Assembly (NCBI RefSeq): GCF_964355755.1
Contig: NC_092677.1
Location: 10,438,601 to 10,502,600 of the forward strand
DNA length: 64,000 bases
Source: Antedon mediterranea
Taxonomy: Eukaryota > Echinodermata > Crinoidea > Comatulida > Antedonidae
Reading direction: 5' to 3'
This document shows positions 7,317 through 64,000 of this stretch, piece after piece. The number at the start of each line of letters is the position of its first letter. Within the stretch, counting starts at the first letter, position 1. A model generated the notes under the pieces. That model was not told the origin of the DNA and made no database searches. It was given only the letters and a program-made list of their open reading frames with translations. The position numbers were made by a program, and so were the translations under genes.

Positions 7317-7839
7317 TCATGAATAAAAAGATTTAAAGCGGTAAAAAAGAAAGGTCGCAGACATTATTCACTTTGCAACATACAAAGAGTTAATTTACCT
7401 AAAAAAGAAGTGGGTCACATTTGCCAGGAAACTAGAAAGTTTTTTATCAAGGATAAAAAGATATGTATATGATCCTAGTATTATACATTGAATACCATGC
7501 TTTAATGCCATGATGTTATTATAGCCAAAGTGACAGGATTTAAAAGGAAAGAATCTGATTGGTTAACAGTAGCCCTTTCTAAAAACCAATAGAAACAAGT
7601 GTATAAAGTACTGTCTAGATATTATAGAAAGATGTAGAAAAAGATGATAGAAGAGGATATAAGATGTCAAGAAGGAGAGAGGATGAGAGGAAAGGAAAGG
7701 ACATGTTTATAAGGAGAAAGGGACAGCATGTAAAGGAGAAAGAGAGTAAGTAAAGAAAGAGGACAAGATGTATATAGATGATAAAAAAGAGGAATGGATA
7801 AGAATAAAGTGGAAAAAAGAAAAGGCGAGAGGGTTAGCA
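7317..7839. other. Intergenic, grading into purine-rich DNA
   Basis: No gene is seen. From about 7660 the plus strand becomes strongly purine-rich, leading into the minisatellite. Confidence 0.5.
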
Positions 7840-9195
7840 AAGAAGAAGAAAAAGGAGATGTTGCAAAGAAGAAAAAGGAGACGTTGTAAAGAAAAAGGAA
7901 GAGGAGAGGTTGCAAAGAAGAAAAAAGATGAGAGGTTGTAAAGAAAAAGAATGAGGAGAGGTTGCAAAGAAGAAGAGAAGGGAGAGCTTGCAAAGAAGAA
8001 GAAAAAGGAGACGTTGTAAAGAAAAAGGAAGAGGAGAGGTTGCAAAGAAGAAGAGAAGGGAGAGGTTGCAAAGAAGAAGAGAAGGGAGAGGTTGCAAAGA
8101 AGAAGAGAAGGGAGAGGTTGCAAAGAAGAAGAGAAGGGAGAGGTTGCAAAGAAGAAGAAAGATGAGAGGTTGTAAAGAAAAAGAAAGAGGAGAGGTTGCA
8201 AAGAAGAAGAGAAGGGAGAGCTTGTAAAGAAAAAGAAAGAGGAGAGGTTGCAAAGAAGAAGAGAAGGGAGAGGTTGCAAAGAAGAAGAGAAGGAAGAGGT
8301 TGCAAAGAAGAAGAGAAGGGAGAGGTTGCAAAGAAGAAGAGAAGGAAGAGGTTGCAAAGAAGAAGAGAAGGGAGAGGTTGCAAAGAAGAAGAAAGATGAG
8401 AGGTTGTAAAGAAAAAGAAAGAGGAGAGGTTGCAAAGAAGAAGAGAAGGGAGAGCTTGTAAAGAAAAAGAAAGAGGAGAGGTTGCAAAGAAGAAGAGAAG
8501 GGAGAGCTTGTAAAGAAAAAGAAAGAGGAGAGGTTGCAAAGAAGAAGAGAAGGGAGAGGTTGCAAAGAAGAAGAAAGAGGAGAGGTTGCAAAGAAGAAGG
8601 GAAGGGAGAGCTTGTAAAGAAAAAGAAAGAGGAGAGGTTGCAAAGAAGAAGAGAAGGGAGAGGTTGCAAAGAAGAAGAGAAGGGAGAGGTTGCAAAGAAC
8701 AAGAAAGATGAGAGGTTGTAAAGAAAAAGAAAGAGGAGAGGTTGCAAAGAAGAAGAGAAGGGAGAGGTTGCAAAGAAGAAGAGAAGGGAGAGGTTGCAAA
8801 GAACAAGAAAGAGGAGAGGTTGCAAATAAGAAGAGAAGGGAGAGGTTGCAAAGAAGAAGAGAAGGGAGAGGTTGCAAAGAACAAGAAAGAGGAGAGCTTG
8901 CAAAGAACAAGAAAGAGGAGAGCTTGCAAAGAACAAGAAAGAGGAGAGGTTGTAAAGAAGAAGAGAAGGGAGAGCTTGCAAAGAACAAGAAAGCTGAGAG
9001 GTTGTAAAGAAGAAAAAAGAGGAGAGGTTGCAAAAAAGAAAAAGAGGAGAGGGTTAGCAAAGAAGAAGAAAAGAGGTTGCAATAAAAAAAAAAGAGAGGT
9101 TGGATAAGAAAAAAGAGGATGTAAAGAAGAATGAGGAGAGGATGTAAAGAAGAATGAGGAGAGGATGTAAAGAAGAATGAGGAGAGGATGTAAAG
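7840..9195. repeat. 26-bp purine-rich minisatellite, about 1.35 kb
   Basis: Dozens of copies of a 26-bp unit of the form tgcaaagaagaagagaaggg plus agaggt, with variant units (gtaaagaaaaagaaag, gaacaagaaag). The plus strand is nearly all purine apart from a ttgc interruption in each unit. Because 26 is not a multiple of three, reading phase rotates from unit to unit. This explains the long open frames in all three minus-strand phases (up to 471 codons) and several on the plus strand. None is a gene. The 3' end (9115-9195) shifts to a shorter unit, gaggatgtaaagaagaat. Confidence 0.95.
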
Positions 9196-9756
9196 AATTT
9201 AGGATGGAAAAAAGTATAAAAAAGGTGTTAAGAAATCTGGATTTAACATAAATAAATGTATAGACATATCATAGCGTGAGAAGCTTAAAACATTACTAAA
9301 ATACAAACATTACACTAAACTAATTCATTCATTTATATAAAATTTAAATACAGTGATGGCAGATGTTTATGTCAGACATAATGTTTTACTAACGATTAAA
9401 CGAGAAGAAAATTGAACCACAATCAATAACGCTCCTCCTAAAAACTGTCTAGACACACGAATAATAACAAAAACATAATTTACCAATCAACAATTGAAAT
9501 AACATGACTGTATAATCTGTTTATTTGGAAGTGAATGCAAACTTCATGATCTTAATCTCCCTATTCATTATTTTCTGTATTATTCATGTATTAAATTTGT
9601 AAAAGATTACTCTGGAAAACAATGTCTGGAAAAACATTTCATAAATTGTATCTCACATGAATTGATTATTTAATAAAGTAGTGTAAGTTTATTTAAACTA
9701 CGCAAATATAGTAATAATACAGATCATAATATGAAATTGTAATTTTGACAAAGCGG

Positions 9757-42647: not shown

Positions 42648-45600
42648 ATGGCGCTCGGTTTATCTCATAAAAACAACTTAAATACATGGTTATCGTGGCT
42701 TATGTCCATCAGTCATTTGGTGGTGTTATTTGCAACGTTTACAGAAGGAATTGACGTTGGTAAGAGACTTGAATTGTTCGTACTTAATGCTTTATTACCT
42801 TGATACTTAACAGCTACAATAATTACAGTAATCACAGCTAGTGCTAACAGTTATATATCCCTAGCTGCATTAATTAAATAAACTAGATGGCACGCTCGCT
42901 TCGCTCGCGTACCATCTAGGTCGTGCCCACAGATGGTTCTCGAATACACAGTATTTTCCAGCGAGAAAAAAATGGAGATTTCAAATGTACGTACTGCAGG
43001 ACTATAATACATTGTCGTTTACAGAAACGAATAAATATACACGATGATTTATGAAGTCAGCTAAAATTAGCACCCTGGGAATTACTTCCGAGAGAGAAAC
43101 AAAATGAGTCAATTTTTTTTTATTTGGATTCATTTAAACAAACCCAATTTGTGTTTTGTATGTAACATTAAGTGTTGAGGGATGGGGAAGAAGATAGGTA
43201 CAAAGAGGAAACATTTTAAAATATATTCTTATCCACTCAGTAACGAAATATTGTTTTTAATGTTTTATAGGCCTATAAATAATATACCACTAAATACAGT
43301 AAAACATTTACGATTTAATACTTTGTTAAAACTCTCACTGTCATAGTCGATTGAAATAGTAAAGTACATGTAACGATACACCACTACGTACGTTTATATA
43401 TTTTTTAATTATTAATTAATACAAACGTTGAGAAGCAACTGTCAGTAATAACGTTTATTTATTTGTATATTATATGTTTATAATCTAACAGTAGGGCCTA
43501 CCCACACTCACAGTAATAAAGTTTATTTGTATATTTGTTTATATTATATCTAGCAGTACCAACACTCACAGTAAGAAATTTGCGATTCAAATTGCGATCA
43601 AAAGTGGTTAATACCTTAACAGTATTGTACAGCATTGCAATACTATTTATGTTTATTCTCCAAGGGGGCCCATAAATCTAAATCTATACCTCTATGGTTA
43701 AACCAAATAATTTGGAATGTTCCATTCATCACAACTCAATAAATTTGTAAAAACGTATATTACATGTATCAAAATAGCATTTTTTAAAGAAAATCGGCCT
43801 GTCTTCAACATTATGATGCTGTACTCGAGCAGTTCAACCGGTTTTCATCTATTAAAAACAATTATCGTAGGAGGAGATAGGAAAATGCGAAGCGTCCTCG
43901 TATTATTGTGTGCGGGTATTTTTCAAGTTGGACATCCATTAGACAGTGTATACCACGATCGGAAAACACCCCTATTTGGGGAAAATCGTTGAACCTAAAT
44001 TCGTTTTAATCGTCAATAACTAATTATCTAACTCAATTTAATTAGTAAACAGGGTTACATCAGGTGGTTAAAATCAGTACCGAAAGTACGAACCAACTTT
44101 ATATACCATCGAGTAAACATTCTAGAAGTAATGCGCGATTTACCGAATTTTGCCCTTACGTAAATTTATATATAGATACGGCCTAAGGCTACATATCCCG
44201 TCGAAGTTTGTAATTTAATATTGTGGTATCTCAACGTTGTGAATATAAGCAAACTGCCTTGATAGGCTACGATCGTTACCGTTTATTTTAATCACTCTAA
44301 ATTGTTGTTCCACTCCACCCCGAATTCAACAGTACACGTCGTCAATGTCATTCCAATCATATAATAATTATATGATTGTAAATATAACCATTCCTAATCT
44401 CACAATGACAATTAACGTACATACATAGTTCAGACAATGTTAGAGATGCACTACTGTTTATTCGTTTATTCAATAATAAATATTCCACACATATATTAAA
44501 AATACATAAAAATTATATTAACGCGTTTGATAGTAATTAATAAAAACATAGTATGTGTGGAAGGAAACCTAATATAAGTTTACGCCTAGACTCTCAGAAA
44601 TAAGTGAAGTACTGTACAGTAACAAAGAAGTTGGGAAGAAAAAGATACAATATACGATATAGGCCTATTATAACAAGGCCATATGCATGGCTGCTGCAGT
44701 CGCGTGCTCAAGTTAGTGTTTACCGATCAACCGACCAACCGACCGACACTGTAGAGTCGCGCTGCACGCAACTAAAAAAGGAAGGGCAATAGAAAAAGCG
44801 AGAACACCGGAAAGTCGAGATACTCAGGTCTTATATAAGCAACAGACCGGTTATATATGACAAAAGTAAATAATGTTACTATATAATTATTATATTTACT
44901 TTTAGACTACCTAACCACAAACTGTAACAACACAATAACAGCACAGAAAGGCGGTATAATTGAACCCGAATCCCGCCTCTTTTATTCGAATAACGTCGAC
45001 TGCATATCTAGTCTGAAAGCCCCAGAAGGTAGTCAACTTCTGCTCCAATTTTACCGCTTTAGTTTAGAAGACTATGTAAATAACCAGTGTGCTGATAAGT
45101 TAGTTGTTTACGACGGTCTTGCTCCTAACAGTAGCAGACGGTTGACAGAAGAATTATGTGGTCGAATTCGTCCGGAAAACGTTGAATCGACGGGTGAGTC
45201 CGTTACTATTGAGTTCGTATCGGACGAGGATGGCCAATCGACTGGATTCGGGATCTTCTATACTATATTTAGAGACGGTAAGTTTTTTTTTATACTAGAG
45301 GTGAAATCGTTACAACTCCTCATCAATATATCACTTTGCAATTATTAGGAGTATCATTGTCTCTGATGTCATTAGCGTCATATTAGTCACCATCAACCAT
45401 CAACTTTCCCTTATATCACCATCTCACTGTTTTTTCTCTCACACAGCTCCATGTAGCGAAGATGAATTTGAATGCGACAACGGTAAATGTATCGCAGCAT
45501 CTTTAAAGTGCGATACGTATGATATGTGTGGAGATAACAGTGACGAAGCGAACTGTGGTAAGAATAATATTTCTGTAGTTGCTTGAGCTTGATTACGGGG

Positions 45601-46848
45601 CGCCGTTCGGGACTCATTTTCTCGACAAAATACAATCCCGAACAGCGCCCCGTACTACTTGAAATGTCATTCTTTTATTTGACTGAAGTGAATTACAAGT
45701 TAGATACAAGTCATGACGCTTCGGTATACCGTAAATCTTCTAATTGTAACCCTGGGTTATTATTCTTTGATAGTTTTTAAGGTGGGTTAATATTAGAAGG
45801 GGGGTTACTTTTAGAGTAGTGGGTTACTATTAGTAATCTTAAATTAGGCACCCTCAACTTTTCCGGTCAGCAACTCATAGCAAAATAATAAATACGGCTG
45901 CATCATAAGTTTTTATAACTCTAATAGTAACTCCTATGGGTATGGGTTACTATTAGAGCAGTGGGTTACTATTAGAAGATTTACGGTAGGTCCCTCTCTT
46001 TCCGAATGCACCGAGTTCCCCTTTACTAGTGTACACGCGCCGTAATAAGTGTACACTGCTGGACCTCCATTTTAAGTCTCCGAGCAGACTAGGACATCCA
46101 GAGAAAGTCGAGTCGAGTTTGCAATGCCCCATGACCGCTCGGTCACTAGACTCAAAATTCATTCATAATACAACCCTAGTTAATGAGATATTTAAACCAA
46201 ACTCCCTAAAGTAACCTATAACAATAAAATAATATAGAAAAGTGGGCTAACAAGACAATATGAGTCAAGGTAAGAGAAGTGTATGTTTAAGATTGTGACA
46301 CGTTTCAACTTTGTCAATAAACGGGTTTTTCTTTATTGAATTGTCAATGTTCTGAAAACGAGACAAAGCACAGCATGTTGATAAAGTAAAACGATTCTCA
46401 TGAAATGTAGAAACAATCAACAGTGGTTATCTATCCTAAGAAATGTATAAAAACAAATATAAAGTTTAAAGTTATGAATGTATACTTTGACGACGTGACG
46501 ATGTTTTATTGACACTTTTTTTCGTTTCTATTGTCTACTGTACACGCTACTGCGACGCGTTTCAACTTTTGTAAACACAATGTTTGTTTAGGCTTCCTTG
46601 GTTTAAACATTTGTATGTTGCTTTTTGTTTCAGATGAACCAGCTGTGGATGACCGTGGATTGAGTACCGCGGTAATATTTGCTATTCTCGTTGGTAGTAT
46701 TTGCTTCGTCATCGCCGTTATCTATATTGTGTATACGGTTAAAGAAAAGCAACGTCAGAAGAAACTCACAGAACAAATTTTAAAAGAAAGTGTCCTGAAA
46801 CCATCCGACAACAATTATTGTGACAAAGATTTCTGGGGATCTTCTTGA
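42648..46848 (+). CDS. Gene B: CUB-LDLA single-pass membrane protein, 269 aa
   Basis: Four exons, 42648-42759, 44906-45277, 45447-45557 and 46634-46848, all joined in phase 1, giving 269 residues. Exon 1 encodes a signal peptide (hydrophobic [11 protein letters not shown]). Exon 2 is one complete CUB domain (residues about 38-161) with four cysteines, [10 protein letters not shown] and [11 protein letters not shown]. Exon 3 is one LDL-A module (about 162-198) with the canonical calcium cage [10 protein letters not shown]. Exon 4 has a membrane helix (about 208-230) and a 39-residue tail beginning with charged KEKQRQKK. The topology is type I. The CUB/LDLA/TM order recalls NETO-type receptors but with one CUB fewer; orthology is not claimed. 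It lies divergently to CEP192 and convergently to gene C. Its tail lacks the Cys cluster of C and D. Confidence 0.9.
42880..42930. repeat. Short palindromic repeat edge, cgctcgcttcgctcgcg
   Basis: The sequence ctagatggcacgctcgcttc and its continuation to ccatctagg form an imperfect palindrome. Motifs of this kind often mark ends of dispersed invertebrate elements. It lies in intron 1 of gene B. Confidence 0.4.
45597..45651. repeat. Short hairpin in gene B intron 3
   Basis: The sequence ggggcgccgttcgggact pairs with atcccgaacagcgcccc across a short spacer. Confidence 0.7.
45726..45988. mobile_element. 263-bp MITE in gene B intron 3
   Basis: Ends taccgtaaatcttctaatt and attagaagatttacggta are inverted. 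The interior carries several gggttactattag-type repeats. It is non-coding. Confidence 0.85.
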
Positions 46849-47953: not shown

Positions 47954-50525
47954 TCATCTGCTTTCTCTCGCATGGCCACCGTCTCCATTAAAGAAGTCAT
48001 AATAATCTTCTCCACCACCTCCTCCATAACCTTCATCGTCGTGATCACCGCCATGGCCTTTCCTGTTACCTCCCTTTCCACTTCTTGGAATCAAACCTAC
48101 CGCTGCCCAATCATTGTTTCCATCTCTGCGTCCTCCGCCAGATGACGTACCGTCTCCATCACGTCGCGCGTCAGAGCCCCCGCTTCGGCCTTTCCTTCTT
48201 CCCTTACAGCACCGCCTGCACGACCGCCCACATCGTCGAAGACAGCGTCTGCATTTACACCTGGTGCAACAGGTTCTGCAGCAGCCGACAAAACATTGCT
48301 TGCAGAAGTTTCGACAGCAAGCTAGGCGCCAAGGTATGTAACCTGGTCGCCAACACAACCAGTACAAGATGTATAACGCCCATAGAACACCAAGTAGAAT
48401 CATCAGAATCCACCATATAGAATCGACAACTGACACGGATTCCTTACGTATCACTGGAATAAAATACACATAACTGTAACTTCTGTAATGAAAAAAAATA
48501 CACTAAAGCTAGTATTTGATGAAAATGTACATACATGGGCAAAACGAAGGCGCTCCAACTCTCTGGTCTGAACCATCCCCGCAGTTGTTGAAAAAATCAC
48601 ATCTAACGGAACGCGGGACACACAGACCGTTGTCACATTGTAGTTCAAACACTTCATCCGTACAAGTACCTAAATAGATAATTTAAAAAGTAATATTATA
48701 TTTACAATTTAATTTACGAACTCAATTCAGTGAATTAATCTGTTTTATAAACGTCGAGCGTGTAAATGTGTAATCAATTTTAATATCATATCGGTTTTCA
48801 AATGTTTAAACCCTTCCCAACATTCGGTCATTTGATGCCCTCCTGTGTATGGATGGGTGTAATATTAACCATTTGTACAAACGCTCTCTAGATCTCTCTA
48901 GTAGATTTCATAGTGTCAGATTTTGGTACCCATAATTATCACTTCTAGGCCTACCAATTTAAAAGAACCTTTACCTGACGTAAACGAGGTGTACAGAAGC
49001 GTGATGTTGACTGCAGCTCCTGGTGCAATAGAGAAACGAATGATTGCAAATTGAGTGAGCGTTTGGAACGTTGACGTATCATTGAGGCAGTATCTATCAA
49101 TGATATCATCGTCAGAGATGACCTGTCCATCCCAAACAGATATGTACGTACTGCCGCACTCGTTGGTATTGGCTGGATCTGGATAGTATAAACATGAAAC
49201 TGAATTTCACTCTTCGTTATACGAGTGCGTACATGACGTAATTGAGACCAATACTTTAAAGATGCTGGTGTGAACTAAATGTATAAGTAAAAGTAACAAA
49301 TGATCGCAGTGATTAAAATTCATTTAACCACTGATATTGTTGAGAAAACCCCGAGTTTGAGTAACTTCGCCAGACTGCAGCTAACTAGTTTTCAGAGGTT
49401 AGAACTTAAGTTAGCCAATGAAATCATAGTCTTTGTAGTCATGTGATTCTGCAAGTGGATAAAATTACAGTAAAGCCAAATCCACACCAGCAAAACTTTA
49501 GTTTGAAAACGGAGGGTTTTCCCAAGTTTACCAGAGTGTGTACACGCACGCTCGCGTCCGTCAACTCGGTGACGCCACTGACGATACCAAGCAGTAAACT
49601 AAACTTACCTTCAATGACTAGGTCAACAAAGTTAAAAGACAGCCTTTGATCAGATCGTAATGCTTGTACTTGTACTGTGCACGTGATCCGAGATCCAGAC
49701 GTGTTATTAAACACATCCTCGTCATCATGTGATCTTAAAGCATACGCATCTTTCTTACGTAATGCGTTTCCACAATTATCCATCATGTTCACTTGAGAAA
49801 ATAATTAAGTCAATAGTAAGCAATTCGACAATTAATGCATTGTTAACAAAGAAAACAATTATTTATTCTAAATGATTTGAAAAAATAAGTCTATAGGTCC
49901 AAATAATAAAGATACAAGGGTTGGTTCAGGAACTATAAGTTTGACGTTAAGGAGAATTTTTGACGTTAACTAGATGTTTTTTGACGTAGGGAAAAGTTGT
50001 TAACAAACGGTACTTAGACCTAATCTTCATCCAAAGATATTACGTTTACGTGAAATTAGTTTCTTATTAATTATACAATGCTAAGTTCTGTTACTACGGA
50101 AATTGTAAATGTTACCATATGTTATATAAGATACGTGTTGAGACACCAAATGTTTGTAATAATAAGTTTAGCTTATGTAACCTCTGGTCTACATTAAAAG
50201 AGATCAGTGGAAAAAACAAATTTGTTTTGGATAACAAACTCATTGTATGGACCAATAGACTTAATCAAACATTTGTAGGCTTAGTCATACATGAATAATA
50301 CTTCTTCGGGGACATATATTTTCGGACGATATTAAATAATCTAAGTGAATACATCTATGGGGAGACTATGTGTAATGTAGCGTATATATAGGCCTATACA
50401 ATACTCGTCTATTAAAAAAAAGGAGGAGTGGAGAACAATATTGTATACTTACAGTAGCTTGTTATTCCAAGAACAGAACCAATGCACAGGTAAACAAGTA
50501 AAATATGTAATAAACTCGCCGCCAT
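47954..50525 (-). CDS. Gene C: CUB-LDLA membrane protein with Cys/Arg-rich tail, 364 aa
   Basis: Five exons, 50453-50525, 49609-49791, 48975-49178, 48535-48669 and 47954-48453, all joined in phase 1 (364 residues). Exon 1 gives a signal peptide ([17 protein letters not shown]). Exons 2-3 make one CUB domain (about 26-153) split by an intron, with glycosylation sites (NNTS, NDTS, NITL). Exon 4 is an LDL-A module whose last part reads CGDGSDQ, so the usual SDE is altered. Exon 5 has a membrane helix (about 208-230) followed by CWRPGY. After it comes a dense Cys/Arg block of about 45 residues (for example [14 protein letters not shown]), then a Gly/Asp-rich acidic tail with DYYDFF, ending HARESR. 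The function is unknown. The juxtamembrane cysteines could be palmitoylated or bind metal (inference). It is a paralogue of gene D. Confidence 0.88.
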
Positions 50526-51464
50526 CTTATTTCGAAGTTCTTCCTTTAATAAGAAATTAATCACAGTACTATACTTTCATTTGCATACAACATATTCACT
50601 CATCAGAAAATGGCTACATATCACCGTTAGTTACGTTTAACAGCGGCGTAAAGGATTCTTGAGCGCGCGCTCTCGCAATGACGTTTTTTAGCAATAGGCC
50701 TAGGCTACCGTATGTGTTTCTCTTTAGCTCATATGTTCCTGAATTTACCATAAACACGGACAACAATTAGGTTACTGCAGCCATAGAAACTCAGTGACGA
50801 GTAGCCGTCACTTGTGTAAGCAGATGTATAACATTGACATTTTTGGCTTAGCCGCTTGTAACCACTTGGCAACCGTCAAGATGCAACATCTGAACATATC
50901 ACACCTCCATTGTTAAACTTCAAGAGCCAATCAAATGTCTTTGTTTAATCCAATATACTTTTAAGTGCAATTTATTATACAATTCTATAGATAAACGACA
51001 CCTGATATAATATTAGAGGGTTACTGTTATGAAATAGTTTATTAAACAAATATCATTCTAACCCGAAATAAAATATCGTGATCTTTTTCGCCACATGTCA
51101 ATGCCTGGGGATACAGCCTTCTCAACCTGAATTCACTACGGTATTGTATTTTTTTTTTCAAGGTTAGGATAATTGTGCACATTTGTGAGTTAATAAACTT
51201 TAAGTTTATATAAGAAACCACTTATCGATGACAAAAAGTACACACGCAATAAGTAATTACTTACGGCGCGTTTATCGAGTTGCTATAGAGACTGTAATCA
51301 CACCAATACACATACGTCCGATCATGGAGGAAATATACATGTTCCTCCGTGGTCCGATTGAGTTAGAAAAGTAGCAAATAAAATACGATGTTTTTACCAG
51401 TCTAATACAATCACAAACGGGAATTGAAAATCAGAAACTGATAATTATTTTACATACATTTAGA
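50526..51464. other. Intergenic between genes C and D
   Basis: Presumed promoter of gene C. A CpG-richer patch with gagcgcgcgctctcgc lies at about 50663-50680, about 140 bp upstream of the start codon. Nothing else is recognised. Confidence 0.5.
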
Positions 51465-51470
51465 TTTATT
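51465..51470 (-). terminator. Candidate poly(A) signal of gene D
   Basis: AATAAA on the minus strand, about 170 nt past the gene D stop. Confidence 0.4.
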
Positions 51471-51641
51471 ATAAAACAATTTTACTACATAAAAGTTTGG
51501 AAAAAGTGAAATTTATAAACTCTTGTTATAATACAGATGTGTAGCCTATTCAAAATTAATACCGACTACTAAATGTTGTATATTGCTATTATGTAATTAA
51601 ATAAATACTTCTGTAAAAATTCATTATTGTTTTTACATTCG

Positions 51642-54618
51642 TCATCGACCTTCTCGAACATGTGCGCCAGCTCCATTATCAATATCATCGTCTGCTCCTA
51701 AATATGGTTCAGAAGATAGAAATACACCTTTTCTTGGAGGAGGCAGATTCCGCCGTGCCGTAACCGGTGTAGAATCAGTACTTGTTAACATCAATGCTGA
51801 AGGTAGACTCTGTGACGAAGGAAAGCTTCCATCTGGTGAATTCGTGTCTGAATATTCATCTGGAGGCGGTGGCATTGGTGATATTCTATAAGGCGGACGC
51901 CTATGAGACCGTGGGCTGTTGGTACCACTTTCTGGTTCGTATAACACTTTACCTCTGCGTCCTAGCCCAGGCCTAGGCTCACGTCTACCATTGGGTTCAT
52001 TGTTATTTTGACCCTTAGTTTGCGCAGAATTGTCCCTTTTATTTCCTGAATCCGGTTCTTTCTCTATTGATAAACTATCATTTTCAGATCGCGCTTCATT
52101 GATATTGCTAAACACAATAGGTGAACCAGTGTCATCGAGAAAAACACCTTTGGTAGAACCATTTGGTTTGTTAGGCCTATCACGAGGACTATTATTCTCA
52201 GATCTCACCACAATAAACACATTTCTGAGAGCAGTAGCCTCGCGTTCTGTGGTCCTTACGGTATTTTGACTCTGTCGAGTCTGTGAGTCTTCCCTATTTT
52301 CTTGTTTAGGGTCATCGCTACAATCACATCCCGCGCATAACGCACCAGAACAGATGAATTTGCAGAAGTACTTGCTATGTTTTGTACAGCAAGAGCAGGG
52401 CTTCTTGGAGAAGCGACGTCTGCGGCAACATCCACATATCCAGGCAAAATAACCGGGTCTCCAGCAACACCAGTACAGTACAAAAGGAGATAGTACACCG
52501 ATTACTGCTAGACTGATCCATAGTGGCATTAAATCGGCTGGTTCGTTTACTGAAATACAAATCATAATTGTTGAAAGCGATAATTAAAGAAGAGTATTAT
52601 TGTGCACAATAATGGCACCTCTAGCATTTTCTAGTATTACATTTTTTGTAAACTTCTTTATTTTACACCAACAGAGTAAAAGACCAATAACATGTCGAAT
52701 ATTATTATACATAATATATAATAAAGTAGGCCTACGTAAAAAACTATGGAAACCACACAAATATTGGTATGGTTCCCGTAGGCATGATGTATACACGTTT
52801 ATAGGAATCCTTGTTGAATACAATTTTTTAAAGCGACTTACTTGGACAAAATGAGGGAGAACCATCAGATTGATCGCTATAATCTTCTGCTCCACAGTTG
52901 GAGATGTTCTGCCTGTCACAGACGACTTCTGATGATATGCAACGTTTGGTTGTGCTACACTGAAAATCAGATGACTGACAGTCTGATTCTGCAAAGAAAC
53001 ACATGGACAATTTTAGAAAACAAGATCGAACTTTGAACTTTGACATGATAAGGAAGATTAGTTTTGAAGATGATATATATATATATATAATATGTAGAAT
53101 ATAAATAGAAGTGTGTAATAACCAATCAAATACAAAACTTACCAGAATTAAATGCTGTGAAAACTGCCCTAAAATCAATAACGCTCCAGTCTCCATTAGA
53201 AGTCACACGAATCGTCATACTGGTTCCCGTCGACTCTACAACGCTCGGTCTAACGGTACCACACGGGTTCTGAAGAAGCACAGCTGAAGTGGATGATGAA
53301 CCGTCATATAACCGTAACGAGGCATGAGAACAATTAGTATTATCTCCATACCTGAAACAAATTATGAAATTACTGCTTTTTGATAACTTCTTTAGAAAAA
53401 AAAATATAGGTCTACTGTACACGAGGCCTTTTACATCTATCCAGAAGTTGCATCTGCGAGTGAAAGGGCCATTTTCGGTGTATATAAATTTAGGCCTAAG
53501 TGTCTAAGGTGAGGTTGAGCTAATTAATATTTTACAACCCGTTCGGTATGTAAAATATGTCACAAAAAAGCTATTATTGAAAACTGATCTTTATTAAGTT
53601 GTTGCACTGAGAATGTATTACGTAACATAATTACGTATTAGGTAACTCTGGTGTATACTAACCTTTCTCCGATGTCAAACCATCGAAAGTCAACCATAAC
53701 TTTGGTAAAATCTCCCATTGCAGTTACCGTGTAGGAACAATCAGTTGTTTGGTTAAAATAGTCATATCGACCCTGTGTTGAATGAGATGACATGACGAAC
53801 CCGTAGGTTTCTATCGTTTGACCACAGTTAGAATTTAATAACGTTACTGAAAAAAATATCATAAATTAAATTAATTATGGTTTATCTATGATTTTTAATA
53901 ATTTATTCTTCAAATTCAATAAATCAAAAACAATAATAAAAGATGGAAAAAATTACCAAAAGAAAATGAGAGCAAAAGAAGACACGGTAACGATATAAGC
54001 TCAAAATCTTGTATTTTCTTAATTGTTAAATGTTTAAGCTAATCTATAGTAATGATAACAACAATTTTAAATGTAAATATGTATATGTTTGTATGATGTA
54101 GTATGTTTAAGCGGATATTAGGCCTTGATGGCATTTGCAGAAAATTTAATTTAATTGAATTGCCTTTTTGAAATACACTGTACAGTATAAGGAACTTCTA
54201 TAGGAAATGTATAAAGAGACAATAAAATGTTTGTTTAACCCTAGAATGTCATCGTGGACTAAAGAAAACATTATTACAACTTTGTTTCTTTGTAAAATTG
54301 CATGTTTTCATTAAATTACTTATGGAATGTACACACGTTCTTTTTAAAGACGATAGGCCTATTTAAATGTAAAACTTGTGTTGTCTGATCTGCAATTATA
54401 ATTGAATAAACAATGGTTCTTATGCTTTTTAATCCGTACTACACGGAGTTGGTCTGCACTGAAAGTTATTGTAATTAATGAACTAATAATCAATATTGTT
54501 TATACTAACCTGTATCAAGCGAATCCCTAGATCCTGTGTCACTTGTGGTCGCACGATTACACTCGGAACTCTTCCTAACCAGGCATCCTAGTAACACGAC
54601 AGGAAATAAAATCCTCAT
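51642..54618 (-). CDS. Gene D: CUB-LDLA membrane protein with long Pro/Ser tail, 518 aa
   Basis: Five exons, 54510-54618, 53663-53846, 53143-53351, 52842-52988 and 51642-52549, with end phases 1, 2, 1, 1 (518 residues). Exon 1 encodes a signal peptide (MRILFPVVLLGCLV). Exons 2-3 form one CUB domain (about 37-167; NSNCGQTIETYG, ASLRLYDG). Exon 4 is a degenerate LDL-A module (about 168-216) with an insertion (CGAEDYSDQSDGSPSFC) replacing the usual calcium cage. The last exon has a membrane helix (about 221-245), then CWRPGY and a Cys cluster (CGCCRRRR, CSCCTK, CAGCDC). A long disordered tail rich in Ser/Pro/Arg follows, containing PPYRISPMPPPPDEYSD, a possible SH3/WW or tyrosine-signalling segment (inference). 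It ends HVREGR, matching the HARESR end of gene C. Confidence 0.88.
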
Positions 54619-55441: not shown

Positions 55442-58235
55442 CTATAATACGATACGAGGAATTGTGCCACGATACAACAACAACCCACCAATGGGCGGGA
55501 AAGAAGGTACCATGTTACTGACAGCCCGATTTTCAATGATTGTTTGCCGTAACGTCATAGGCAGACAATGCTGTTGATAGATGTGATGGTGATGTGCAAG
55601 TCCAGGATGTTGAGGAAATTGTTGCAGTTGTGTCACTGGGTAATGGATGACGTTTTGAAGTCGTGCCAGAGATGGCATTGACGCTTGAGTGCTGGTGCGT
55701 TGATTGACGGTAACCTCATATGACATCGATGGTATAGGCCTACTTTTGGCTACTGGGCCTTGCTTTATTGGTGAGTCTTGTTGATGTACACCAAACGATG
55801 AAGAATATATACTTGATATCGGGGAAAGCGTTCGTTCTTCGTTGTCCTACAAGAAAAATGCATTTACCATACATTAAAATGTTTCTCTAACAGTATAGTA
55901 TTTTTATTTTTTTCGGAATAATATAGTAATATTAATAGCATTATAACTTAATACGGTTTTTGTTGTAATGAAAACCTATCATCAACATTGCTTATGTATC
56001 ACATTCAACCAATCACGAACTAGAAATTCCCACTGCTGTGGACAATCAGGGAAATGTAATTTAACTCTTCCCTGGGACAATACCATTCTTTGTTTGGTTG
56101 GTTACTAAAGCAGAACAACATTTTAATCGAAATGTCTTTGAGACATTCCGACTTCTTTGTTACACCAAACAAATTAGAGATTAGACAATGGAAATAAAAG
56201 AATTCATCAAGAAAGACACTTATAGAGTTTAAGAGACTACTTTGGTTCTAATCCAATTAATAATTAAGAAAATTAGTTTTTCTGATGAAAGCAAGAAGAA
56301 ACTTTGTAACACACAATTCATTTATTGTTCTATAGCCCTAACTGTATATAAAGAGTTAGCTAATAATAGTTTGACAAAAGGACGCCAACAAATTAGTTTT
56401 CCCCAAATGTATTGCAGAAAACGTGAGTCATGTCCAGTTCTTAAGTCATGAAATGTTCTTACCTTTAACATCTTATATCTTTCATCTTTATCGGGAAGTA
56501 TATGTTCTGATATCCGTATCTTTTTAACATCTGTAAAACATATTTATGTTCAATGTTAGTAGAGAAAGGGTGAGAAAACATCGTATCCAGTTAATAAAAA
56601 TTTAAATATTCTAAGTAAATAATTATATCTAAAAAGTAGTGCAAAACTGGACAATTTCTATGAATATTGAACATTTATCTGTCTATAAATACATTACCAT
56701 TTATAATTGTTTGATTCTATAATACAACAAAATATATTTTGTACTTTTTTAAACTGCTAATAAAAATATATTATTGTGGTCTGTTGATTAGGTAGTTTAA
56801 CAAGTTTTGATTAACTAGAATGAAAGTGTAGGGACAAAAGATTCCAATCAACTGATGATTAAGGATTAGGCCTAATCTATACACCAGTAATCTGCCTAAA
56901 CGATTGAAAAGAAGTGGCGCCCTTAGTACAGGTGTATTATGAACTGTAGTTATCGTTGGCAAAATACACCTCAATTAATTTGTACATCTGGTTTAATTAA
57001 GTCTGATCTTATTATGGCAATCTTGTTAATAAGCTTCGAATTAAGCCTAAACAACGTTTTACATTGTAAAAAGAGTTTTTACAGAGACCGCCATTTGGGG
57101 CATGCGCAGTAAAAACTTTAAATAAAAAAACACAAGGCAGTCAAATTGAATAGTTTCTATTCTGTAAATGTTATAGAGTTATAATCAAGTAATATATAAA
57201 GTAATTAAAAAAAATATTGAATAACAATTATTCTTTGATATTGAATTTTGCAATAAACAAATCAAATTAAATTATATAAAAATTAAATAATCTGATGCCT
57301 TTTGAGTTTGATGTTTTGGAATTATAAAACTATAAAATGTTAATTTGCTAGAACCCACAACCTACAGATCGCTAGCCTGGCATTGACCATCTAGCTTGTG
57401 TATGGTGGCTAAAGATAGATTCGAGTTCACGGAAATGTTAATGGTTACTGACTTACTTTGTTGTATTTGTACTTCAATGTCTTCTTGTTTCATGGCTTCT
57501 GCTTTGGTTTCATGTTTCCGTTTCTTAGTTTTGGAAATTCCCAAAATATTTTCAACTGAGAAAGAAATTTTGCAATTTTTGCTCGAAAATTGCTTCTCTG
57601 TGGATCCTTTTGAAGTAGAACACTCGATTCTAGCATTGTTTTCCAAGTCTTCATTTTCTTCTTTAATGTTCAAAAGTTTTCCATTTGTTTCTGATATGTT
57701 ACTAAAGTTGTCCAGACTTGAAGAACTATTTCGCAAAATTCTATTAATTGAGCTGATACTTGGAAGATTGTCTTTACTGCAGATGCCCTTAGCCATCAAA
57801 TGATCTCGGATCTCCCAGGCAAACATAGACGAGTTTTCCTGTTTGAATTCGATTATCTTACAAATTACAAAGGGTGTTGACACTCTGGGCTTACTTCCTC
57901 CGATAGCTCCTGGTAATATTGAACCTGTCTCTGCAAATCGACTCAATATTTTACTAACACATCCATGAGAAACCAGCAGCTGACGGGATATGTCACATGG
58001 TCGAAATCCAAGATGTGCCAATTCTAATATACGATGGCGTATGTGGAGTGGTAGAGGACGACCATTTGCAAAAACTCCACCCAACTGGTTGATGCCGCCA
58101 TGACCTAAAAGAAAATGATACTATTTAACTAACATACCCCCTTTCCCCATCTTGGTAAACCAGTATCATACGAAATATGACATTTTAATTTAAAAGTCAA
58201 TATTTACCTGGTCTTGTTAGCAAACCTTGTAACAT
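55442..58235 (-). CDS. PoxN: Pox-neuro-like paired-box transcription factor, 382 aa
   Basis: Exons 58208-58235 (candidate first coding exon), 57457-58104, 56463-56530 and 55442-55846 give 382 residues with agreeing phases (1, 1, 0). The paired domain (about 10-137) begins [19 protein letters not shown] and contains [38 protein letters not shown] and [40 protein letters not shown] and [12 protein letters not shown] are closest, from memory, to Drosophila Pox neuro. [15 protein letters not shown] also recalls Pax1/9. An octapeptide/EH1-like FSVENILG (about 191-198) suggests Groucho-type corepression. It is followed by basic [10 protein letters not shown], a likely NLS. There is no homeodomain. 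The C-terminus is His/Gln/Pro-rich. It would be a nuclear DNA-binding regulator. The exact Pax subfamily needs a tree, and the first exon is uncertain. Confidence 0.85.
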
Positions 58236-62602: not shown

Positions 62603-63748
62603 TTATATTTTAGAATGTGATCGTCTTGCTTTTTTCCTGGAATATCTGATAAGCACTAACGCTAAGATAACCACTATGGCAACAACTAATAAGACAAACA
62701 CGACGATAACTACCGGATGAAGAGTGCTTTTATCAACCAAAGGTGATTGCATTGTTGGCGCAGCCGTCCATGATGTCGTCGCTGTATCCGTTCCAATTTT
62801 GATCGACATTGCCGCTCCTTTACTCAACCTTCCATCTGGTGTTTCAACTTCACATTCGATCACTGAATTGTTGTCGCTCTGTTTTAAATTGGTTATAGTT
62901 AGTACACGATTGTTTGCTTTCAGTTCAAACCTTCCGGTCATCATTATATCAACATCAACTTTGCTCCAAGAGTATTTGACATTTTCTCCCGATATCTCAC
63001 TACAGACAAACGTAGCATTATCACCTACTTTATAAAATGCCTTGTCAGCTCTGACTGTAGCTACTGGAGATCGTGGAAGAGGTATGATAGTACAGAATGG
63101 TTCGTGAGCAAACGCATTTGAGATGGCTTTGCAACGAAATATGGCACCTTCGTCTGCGCGTTGTAATATCTGATAGTAAGCTAAGGTTGTTGTACCCGCT
63201 TGGTTTAAGACTTCCCGACCGTTAATGTCCCATAACAATGTAGGAGTAGGCATCAGTCCTGATGCTGTTGCTGCTGAGCACGTTAGAGTAATTGTATCCC
63301 CAATTTTTGGTTTAGTTGGAGAGACATCGCAAGTAGGTGCACCTTCCATCGGCACTTCAAGTGTCAGAGTAGCTTGTGCCAATTTCATGAAGGTTTGACG
63401 TGAATCGATATACCCACATTCATAAAGACCACCGTCAATATCTTGAGCATCAGTAATCTGTAGATGGAAATCACGCTTCTTATTGTTCCAAGTGACTTTG
63501 TATCTTCGGCGCAGCTCTGGATCGGTGACATACAGAAGGTGATTTACACTGACATACTTTTCACCAAGGTGCTCTACATGTTTCCAAACAACGGACTCTC
63601 CAGTTTGTATTGATGTCACACTGCATTCCAACGTGGCCGTATTTCCTCTTCTTACTTTCTGACTTATTGGACCTTGTATCAACTGCACTGCAGATGTAAA
63701 ACTTGTTGAGTAAATGAAAAATAGAATGCATGATATTAAAGCCTTCAT
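62603..63748 (-). CDS. Intronless three-Ig-domain type I membrane protein, 381 aa
   Basis: A single uninterrupted frame. I place the start at the ATG ending at 63748, because the next residues (MKALISCILFFIYSTSFTSA) form a clear signal peptide. The frame is open to an ATG at 63826, but that extension is poorly signal-like. Ig1 (about 22-130) is V-type, with LECSVTS, VVWKH and DIDGGLYECGY. Ig2 (about 133-222) has ITLTCSA, LLWDINGRE and AIFRCKA. Ig3 (about 225-318) has ATFVCSE, YSWSKV and SVIECEVE. A Thr/Ser stalk leads to a membrane helix (about 346-367) and a 14-residue basic tail, RYSRKKARRSHSKI. Glycosylation sites include NAT and NNS. It is probably a cell-adhesion or immune-type receptor; the ligand is unknown. 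Lack of introns is unusual for this class. Confidence 0.9.
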   Translation of the reverse strand: MKALISCILFFIYSTSFTSAVQLIQGPISQKVRRGNTATLECSVTSIQTGESVVWKHVEHLGEKYVSVNHLLYVTDPELRRRYKVTWNNKKRDFHLQITDAQDIDGGLYECGYIDSRQTFMKLAQATLTLEVPMEGAPTCDVSPTKPKIGDTITLTCSAATASGLMPTPTLLWDINGREVLNQAGTTTLAYYQILQRADEGAIFRCKAISNAFAHEPFCTIIPLPRSPVATVRADKAFYKVGDNATFVCSEISGENVKYSWSKVDVDIMMTGRFELKANNRVLTITNLKQSDNNSVIECEVETPDGRLSKGAAMSIKIGTDTATTSWTAAPTMQSPLVDKSTLHPVVIVVFVLLVVAIVVILALVLIRYSRKKARRSHSKI

Positions 63749-64000
63749 GATGATGTACTTTGTCAGTGTGCTCCTAAAATCAACGTTTTCACACTGAAGC
63801 ACAAAACGAATATATCTGATTTTCATAGGCCTTCTCTCATAATTTCCGATTTAAGTTAACCAATCAGATGCAGCCAATGAATTGCAATGAAAAATACTCA
63901 CTTAATGTCTTCTGATAAATAATTATGATATGGAAAGTGTGATTTTCCCCCTGAAATGTTACTGTTTTTTGTTTTTATGTAAATAGGAACCTTGCTGCTC
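63749..64000. other. 5' flank of the Ig gene to window end
   Basis: Short upstream region; nothing beyond the possible TATA and CCAAT motifs is recognised. Confidence 0.4.
63809..63817 (-). promoter_or_regulatory. Possible TATA box of the Ig gene
   Basis: Minus-strand atatattcg about 60 nt before the chosen ATG. If real, transcription would start near 63780, downstream of the ATG at 63826, which supports the shorter protein. A CCAAT-like attggttaac lies about 50 nt further upstream (63856-63866). Confidence 0.35.

Follow-up and report, generated by a model that had tools for sequence, protein, structure and literature searches.

Two adjoining CUB/LDLa membrane proteins of the crinoid Antedon mediterranea with a common juxtamembrane WRPGY-Cys block and a common C-terminus

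Proteins that join CUB and LDLa domains to a membrane-spanning segment have been described before, among them the NETO proteins, which have two CUB domains. Drosophila CULD (CG17352) comprises one CUB, one LDLa and one predicted transmembrane (TM) segment (PMC4732287), and Drosophila Loaf (Lost and found, CG6024) carries extracellular CUB and LDLa domains followed by a TM segment; Loaf is endosomal and has been proposed to control the trafficking of another surface molecule (PMC8205486). A role for TM-adjacent cysteines in receptor transport is illustrated by LRP6, which requires S-palmitoylation of two such residues for exit from the endoplasmic reticulum (ER) (PMC5102578). The arrangement seen in CULD and Loaf recurs in two neighboring genes, termed C and D, in a 64,000-nucleotide stretch of the Antedon mediterranea genome (NC_092677.1, positions 10,438,601 to 10,502,600 of the forward strand, or G000:C8:10438601-10502600; hereafter the window). 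The genome comprises 354 Mb in 18 contigs. We read C and D as type I CUB/LDLa proteins that arose by an old tandem duplication and would act as trafficking receptors or adaptors by means of an S-acylated cysteine cluster and a C-terminal docking site, and give this reading as a whole a probability of roughly 0.45.

C and D are adjoining tandem paralogues, both on the minus strand and with five exons each. Their models were derived from the sequence alone, by joining exons at GT-AG sites into a single open frame:

Gene C, 47954-50525, minus strand; predicted exons 50525-50453, 49791-49609, 49178-48975, 48669-48535 and 48453-47954; 364 amino acids (aa).
Gene D, 51642-54618, minus strand; predicted exons 54618-54510, 53846-53663, 53351-53143, 52988-52842 and 52549-51642; 518 aa.

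Introns 1, 3 and 4 are in phase 1 in both genes. Intron 2, which lies within the CUB domain, is in phase 1 in C and phase 2 in D, and because of this difference one of the two sites may be a few bases off; in C, the acceptor at 49172 is an in-frame alternative as good as that at 49178. The last exon of each gene carries the TM helix and the entire cytoplasmic tail. Signal peptides and topology were read by eye, together with the charges flanking the helix. The original prediction assigned C and D the same architecture, and it is almost certain that each comprises a signal peptide, one CUB, one LDLa and one TM segment in type I orientation, followed by a cytoplasmic tail.

The distinguishing features of the pair reside in that tail, at its two extremes:

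C TM helix, 48350-48430, minus strand; AlphaFold helix (residues 8-34 of the last-exon peptide; predicted local distance difference test (pLDDT) about 90 at the core) with a positive cytoplasmic flank.
C juxtamembrane stretch and Cys/Arg block, 48206-48367, minus strand; first 19 codons (48367-48311) conserved with D.
D juxtamembrane LYWCCWRPGY...CDC stretch and Cys/basic block, 52320-52478, minus strand; first 19 codons (52478-52422) conserved with C.
C conserved C-terminus and stop, 47954-47989, minus strand; end-anchored comparison and pattern search.
D conserved C-terminus NGAGAHVREGR and stop, 51642-51677, minus strand; end-anchored comparison and pattern search.

A membrane-proximal LYW-x-CWRPGY text, a dense Cys/Arg block behind it, an H-A/V-R-E-S/G-R end and dissimilar middle tails had all been predicted, and all four observations hold, with both conserved stretches proving longer than described. 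The first extends to LYWxCWRPGYxxWxxxCCR, with 13 of 19 residues identical, and the second reads NGxGxH(A/V)RE(S/G)R-stop. When the last 11 residues are compared without gaps from the stop codon, 7 are identical, a count reached by none of 200,000 tail-composition shuffles; over the last 15 residues the count is 8, reached by a single shuffle in 200,000. The significance of this match depends on anchoring at the stop codon, since free alignment of the tails, taken up below, is marginal. Between the two sites, the middle tail measures 72 aa in C (32% Gly, 14% Asp) and 213 aa in D (13% Ser, 12% Pro, 10% Arg), and a gapped MAFFT alignment finds 17 of 73 aligned positions identical. Under the 13 identical juxtamembrane residues, 5 codons are identical and 8 synonymous; at the C-terminus, with the stop counted, the figures are 5 and 3. 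Such silent-site change beneath unchanged residues points to selection on the protein and argues against recent conversion, and the comparison of the two sequences makes it very probable that both cytoplasmic sites are under selection. In the tail of D (51642-52549, minus strand), the string KGVFL occurs twice (STKGVFLDD and PRKGVFLSS), the second copy shortly upstream of the conserved end.

Both sites are rare in the genome. A degenerate DNA pattern for WRPGYxxW occurs at 13 places in the 354 Mb, namely C, D and 11 places reading WSPGYSRW, against none in the reversed control. The latter pass because the MGN codon set admits Ser; they consist of one 24-base string at 10 places and a version with one base different at the eleventh (L001-L004 and seven more), and the string is probably part of an interspersed repeat. 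WRPGY alone, searched with AGR codons only, is found at five places (D and four others, none of the four being among the WRPGYxxW places) and at six in the reversed control, a count that chance alone could give in 354 Mb, so the longer pattern bears the weight. The pattern GxH-x-R-E-x-R-stop occurs exactly twice, in C and D, with none in the control. These patterns are exact, so a diverged third copy could escape them. When the juxtamembrane blocks of D (74 aa) and C (82 aa) were searched alone at E 0.001, each found only itself, a weak negative given that the two sisters missed each other; a longer D query reaches the juxtamembrane stretch of C at E 0.008. A 94-aa query from C spanning LDLa, TM and juxtamembrane stretch (LYW at residues 73-75) gave 158 matches at E ≤10. 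Among the matches listed, nearly all cover the LDLa part only, and D alone, besides C itself, continues through the juxtamembrane stretch uninterrupted by stop codons (E 4e-5). Two matches with stops also extend into that stretch, neither of them with a WRPG, and a third, at C7:25876392, reaches its first residue only.

Several further candidates were set aside. C10:14531482 (E 0.097 with the longer D query) has frames broken by stops and no WRPG in its 4-kb locus; C2:34649230 and C9:18909310 are LDLa exons whose alignments run across stop codons, with no WRPG at either locus; and C2:20473970 is a CUB-like stretch with no WRPG in its 3-kb locus. A scan of viral contigs with the D block yielded 20 pattern stretches, none confirmed, and no relative. 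The strings CWRPGY, CWRPGW, YWCCWRP and WRPGYFAW, searched without the C-terminal letters, had no match in literature texts, which shows only that those letters are unprinted in the texts covered; among the CUB/LDLa publications listed, no title or abstract opening mentions the cytoplasmic motifs of C and D.

Of 61 residues in the juxtamembrane block of C, 16 are Cys and 19 Arg/Lys; the 61 residues of D include 13 Cys, 12 Arg/Lys and 6 Asp/Glu. All cysteines of either tail fall within the first ~54 residues past the membrane, with none in the rest, and the cytoplasmic flank of the helix has a charge of +4/0 in C and +7/0 in D. Cysteines confined near the membrane and positive flanks are what a membrane-apposed, S-acylated segment would be expected to show. 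Cysteine periodicity (helix, strand or period 3) does not exceed that of shuffles, the smallest count being 2520 of 20,000, which leaves an ordered, Cys-striped helix unsupported. The AlphaFold model of the last exon of C has a mean pLDDT of 48.0 and falls below 50 from residue 40 on, so that only the TM helix is informative; the low values past it are weak evidence of disorder, because the alignment held two sequences only. Aperiodic cysteines and low pLDDT are better fitted by a flexible acylated stretch than by an ordered domain.

The block might instead bind metal, of a zinc or iron-sulfur-like kind, and serve as a small cytoplasmic module for signaling or dimerization rather than as an acylated anchor. 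Many CxxC and CxC spacings in C, and the concentration of 16 and 13 cysteines in a single part of each tail, speak for such a site. Metal sites usually keep their Cys spacing, and here the spacing is unconserved between C and D past CCR; nor does Pfam, at E ≤10, cover either block (no family for C, and for D only a chance-level match to Tweety, E 3.1). Shisa/WBP1-type and Sprouty-type Cys blocks had been considered as candidates, and the Pfam scan of the blocks gave neither. Since the block is basic, membrane-proximal, aperiodic and without a confident fold, the acylated anchor is favored with modest confidence, and a metal site appears unlikely. The chance that the cluster is S-acylated is judged about even, the closest mechanism found in print being that of LRP6.

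The C-terminus invites a different alternative, in which it would be an arginine C-degron, recognized by CRL2-FEM1 at Arg -1 or by Cul4-TRPC4AP at Arg -4, that sets receptor lifetime instead of making a scaffold contact. FEM1C binds the SIL1 end LKELR (PMC10026218). ARESR (C) and VREGR (D) agree with that end in Arg -1, Glu -3 and the basic character of -4; three positions of a single peptide make a weak match. TRPC4AP takes Arg at -3, -4 or -5 (PMC10567573), and both C and D have Arg at -1 and -4. FEM1B also accepts a Cys-rich, zinc-bridged degron; its Arg and Pro degrons often have Leu at -3 (PMC10567573). C and D have Glu there, which speaks against FEM1B. FEM1B substrates that end in Pro have an aromatic residue some 15-20 positions upstream; CDK5R1, which ends in Arg, has Phe-22 (PMC11053023, PMC10567573). 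Aromatic residues are present at F-12, F-13, Y-15 and Y-16 in C and at Y-20 in D, a likeness that would count only if the upstream aromatic mattered for Arg-ended degrons. A degron would also give no account of His -6, which is invariant, or of NGxG, and this alternative is regarded as quite unlikely; if it were true, the lifetime of a membrane receptor would be set by its last residues. Two other kinds of C-terminal ligand were considered and set aside. PDZ ligands need a hydrophobic last residue, which C and D lack, and for a C-terminal 14-3-3 motif, which is of the phospho-Ser type, D has Gly where C has Ser.

The ectodomains place the pair among known CUB-LDLa proteins:

C CUB, 48975-49791 (exons 2 and 3), minus strand; alignment to the D CUB and joint profile of C, D and gene B.
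D CUB, 53143-53846 (exons 2 and 3), minus strand; Pfam CUB E 9.9e-09, 35.9 bits (cut-off 21.4), and NETO2 match.
C LDLa, 48535-48669 (exon 4), minus strand; Pfam Ldl_recept_a E 2.2e-07, above cut-off, domain scanned alone; unusual SDQxxGAPSFCP end.
D LDLa, 52842-52988 (exon 4), minus strand; Pfam Ldl_recept_a E 0.00027, 21.5 bits, slightly below the 24.1 cut-off; SDQxxGSPSFCP end.

Scanned as a whole protein, C matches no Pfam family at E ≤1, CUB included, and its CUB is called from the alignment to D and from the joint profile. That alignment has a local score of 126, which none of 1000 shuffles equals; over the ectodomains, 48 of 169 positions aligned by MAFFT are identical. The three-sequence profile matches cubilin, NETO2 and neuropilin (best 60 of 89 sequences at E ≤0.01); B and D contribute to it along with C. 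Both LDLa domains end in SDQ..G(A/S)PSFCP, with Asn and Gln in place of the Asp and Glu that usually serve as calcium ligands; gene B retains the usual letters. The calcium site of the C and D domains may, on this sequence, be altered.

The best match of D among solved structures is NETO2 (chain 7f56_E, residues 186-323), across CUB and LDLa at E 3.7e-13, and the joint profile reaches NETO2 at E 3.5e-30, which raises the question of whether C and D are divergent NETO proteins lacking one CUB, that is, auxiliary subunits of glutamate receptors. Each five-exon model contains one CUB only, where a NETO protein would have two. C alone matches 34 sequences among solved structures, its best stretches lying within residues 127-197 (the LDLa with, at the widest, the last part of the CUB), and NETO is absent among the 34 matches listed; moreover, a best solved relative is limited by the range of solved structures. 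A NETO identity is therefore considered improbable. Still less probable is that the motif similarity is residual duplication ancestry without particular function: C and D are adjacent, on the same strand and of the same exon plan, but the motifs were kept while the ectodomains and middle tails diverged, and different codons lie under 8 of the 13 juxtamembrane and 3 of the 7 C-terminal identical residues, a silent-site turnover that makes the residues look selected.

In the trafficking receptor or adaptor reading, the CUB-LDLa ectodomain would bind a partner membrane protein or a ligand. S-acylation of the WRPGY-Cys cluster would hold the basic juxtamembrane segment against the inner leaflet; it would also govern how the protein partitions in the membrane and leaves the ER or endosomes. 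At the far end of a linker of arbitrary sequence, NGxGxHxRExR would offer a short motif on which a cytosolic factor for sorting or turnover could dock. A trafficking-type role, of the sort proposed for CULD and Loaf, may be put at even odds. The earlier proposal of two functional sites separated by a free linker thus stands in part: two conserved sites and a free linker are borne out by the comparison of C with D, by the synonymous codons and by patterns unique in the genome, whereas the functional reading, a cluster that is palmitoylated or binds metal together with a C-terminal docking motif, is plausible only.

Several observations weigh against the preferred reading or temper the conservation behind it. 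The likeness to CULD and Loaf is one of architecture alone. The extracellular flank of the helix in C has a charge of +2/-2, so that the contrast across the membrane is mild there, and the pLDDT values suffer from the thin alignment noted above. Beyond CCR, 10 of 34 aligned positions of the Cys block are identical (MAFFT) and the Cys positions align poorly, and 16 and 13 cysteines far exceed the two of LRP6, which gives metal binding some weight. At the C-terminus, a gapped MAFFT alignment matches 6 of 11 residues instead of 7, and free local alignment of the whole tails is marginal, with 33 of 1000 shuffled pairs scoring as high. Finally, the LDLa end NCG..SDQ..G[A/S]PSFCP has 13 of 19 columns identical between C and D, the same as the juxtamembrane block over a span of that width, so that conservation is not confined to the cytoplasmic motifs.

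Tail drift that spares two short sites provides a ready-made map of the residues that matter. It can be speculated further, as a long shot, that C and D define a receptor subfamily with a two-point cytoplasmic code, consisting of an acylated WRPGY-Cys anchor and an Arg-bearing degron or docking end. Were that so, the number of acylated cysteines would decide how accessible the terminus is to its reader, and receptors with unrelated linkers would share one lifetime or sorting switch.

Other CUB-LDLa genes lie in the window and elsewhere on the same contig:

Gene B, 44887-46845, plus strand; CUB E 8.6e-17 and LDLa E 1.8e-10, plus a hydrophobic segment; a third CUB-LDLa-TM gene, next to C and D.
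L009, G000:C8:12926000-12930500, 2.4 Mb away; CUB-LDLa gene with CUB E 5.3e-16 and LDLa E 6.5e-09.

Gene B has a short tail ending in DFWGSS, without the juxtamembrane or the C-terminal motif, and its CUB occupies a single exon, where C and D split theirs over two. In L009, a hydrophobic stretch (by eye) is followed by ISCGC; there is no WRPG in the 4.5 kb read and no match there to the C-terminal pattern, the 3' end of the gene not being fixed. In this genome, then, the CUB-LDLa architecture is more widespread than the motifs, which are a mark of C and D. The window also contains a paired-box exon (57365-58120, minus strand; Pfam PAX E 1.4e-61), an open frame (62606-63850, minus strand) in which Pfam recognizes three immunoglobulin domains (V-set, Ig_2 and Ig_3/I-set) and which by eye has a hydrophobic segment close to its end, and a long low-complexity stretch (7667-9268) in which several frames are open on both strands and which looks like a tandem-repeat artefact.

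With respect to known systems, the original prediction recognized no named family. This is upheld for the cytoplasmic motifs and fails for the architecture, which is that of CULD and Loaf and, in the CUB-LDLa part of D, matches NETO2. The kind of receptor is already known; for a WRPGY-Cys block joined to an NGxGxHxRExR end, Pfam gives chance-level matches and nothing better (at E ≤10, Tweety at E 3.1 and RCDG1 at E 7.1 across the blocks and the D tail; the variable tail of C was scanned within the whole protein, at E ≤1). CULD differs from C and D in its reported role, the turnover of Rh1 and TRPL in photoreceptors (PMC4732287), and Loaf in its short cytoplasmic domain (antigen aa 292-378), the tail of D being much longer (PMC8205486). 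NETO1 and NETO2 resemble D in the order of CUB, LDLa and TM, and differ in having two CUB domains, in keeping with two stretches of the NETO2 chain that match the joint profile, against one in C and D. LRP6 shares TM-proximal cysteines with the pair, two of them modified as compared with 13-16 in a cluster, and serves as an analogue of mechanism, not as a claim of family. The substrates of arginine C-degron pathways (SIL1 and CDK5R1 of FEM1, and those of TRPC4AP) have an Arg end or Arg -4 in common with C and D, in which conservation reaches farther back, through His -6 to NGxG.

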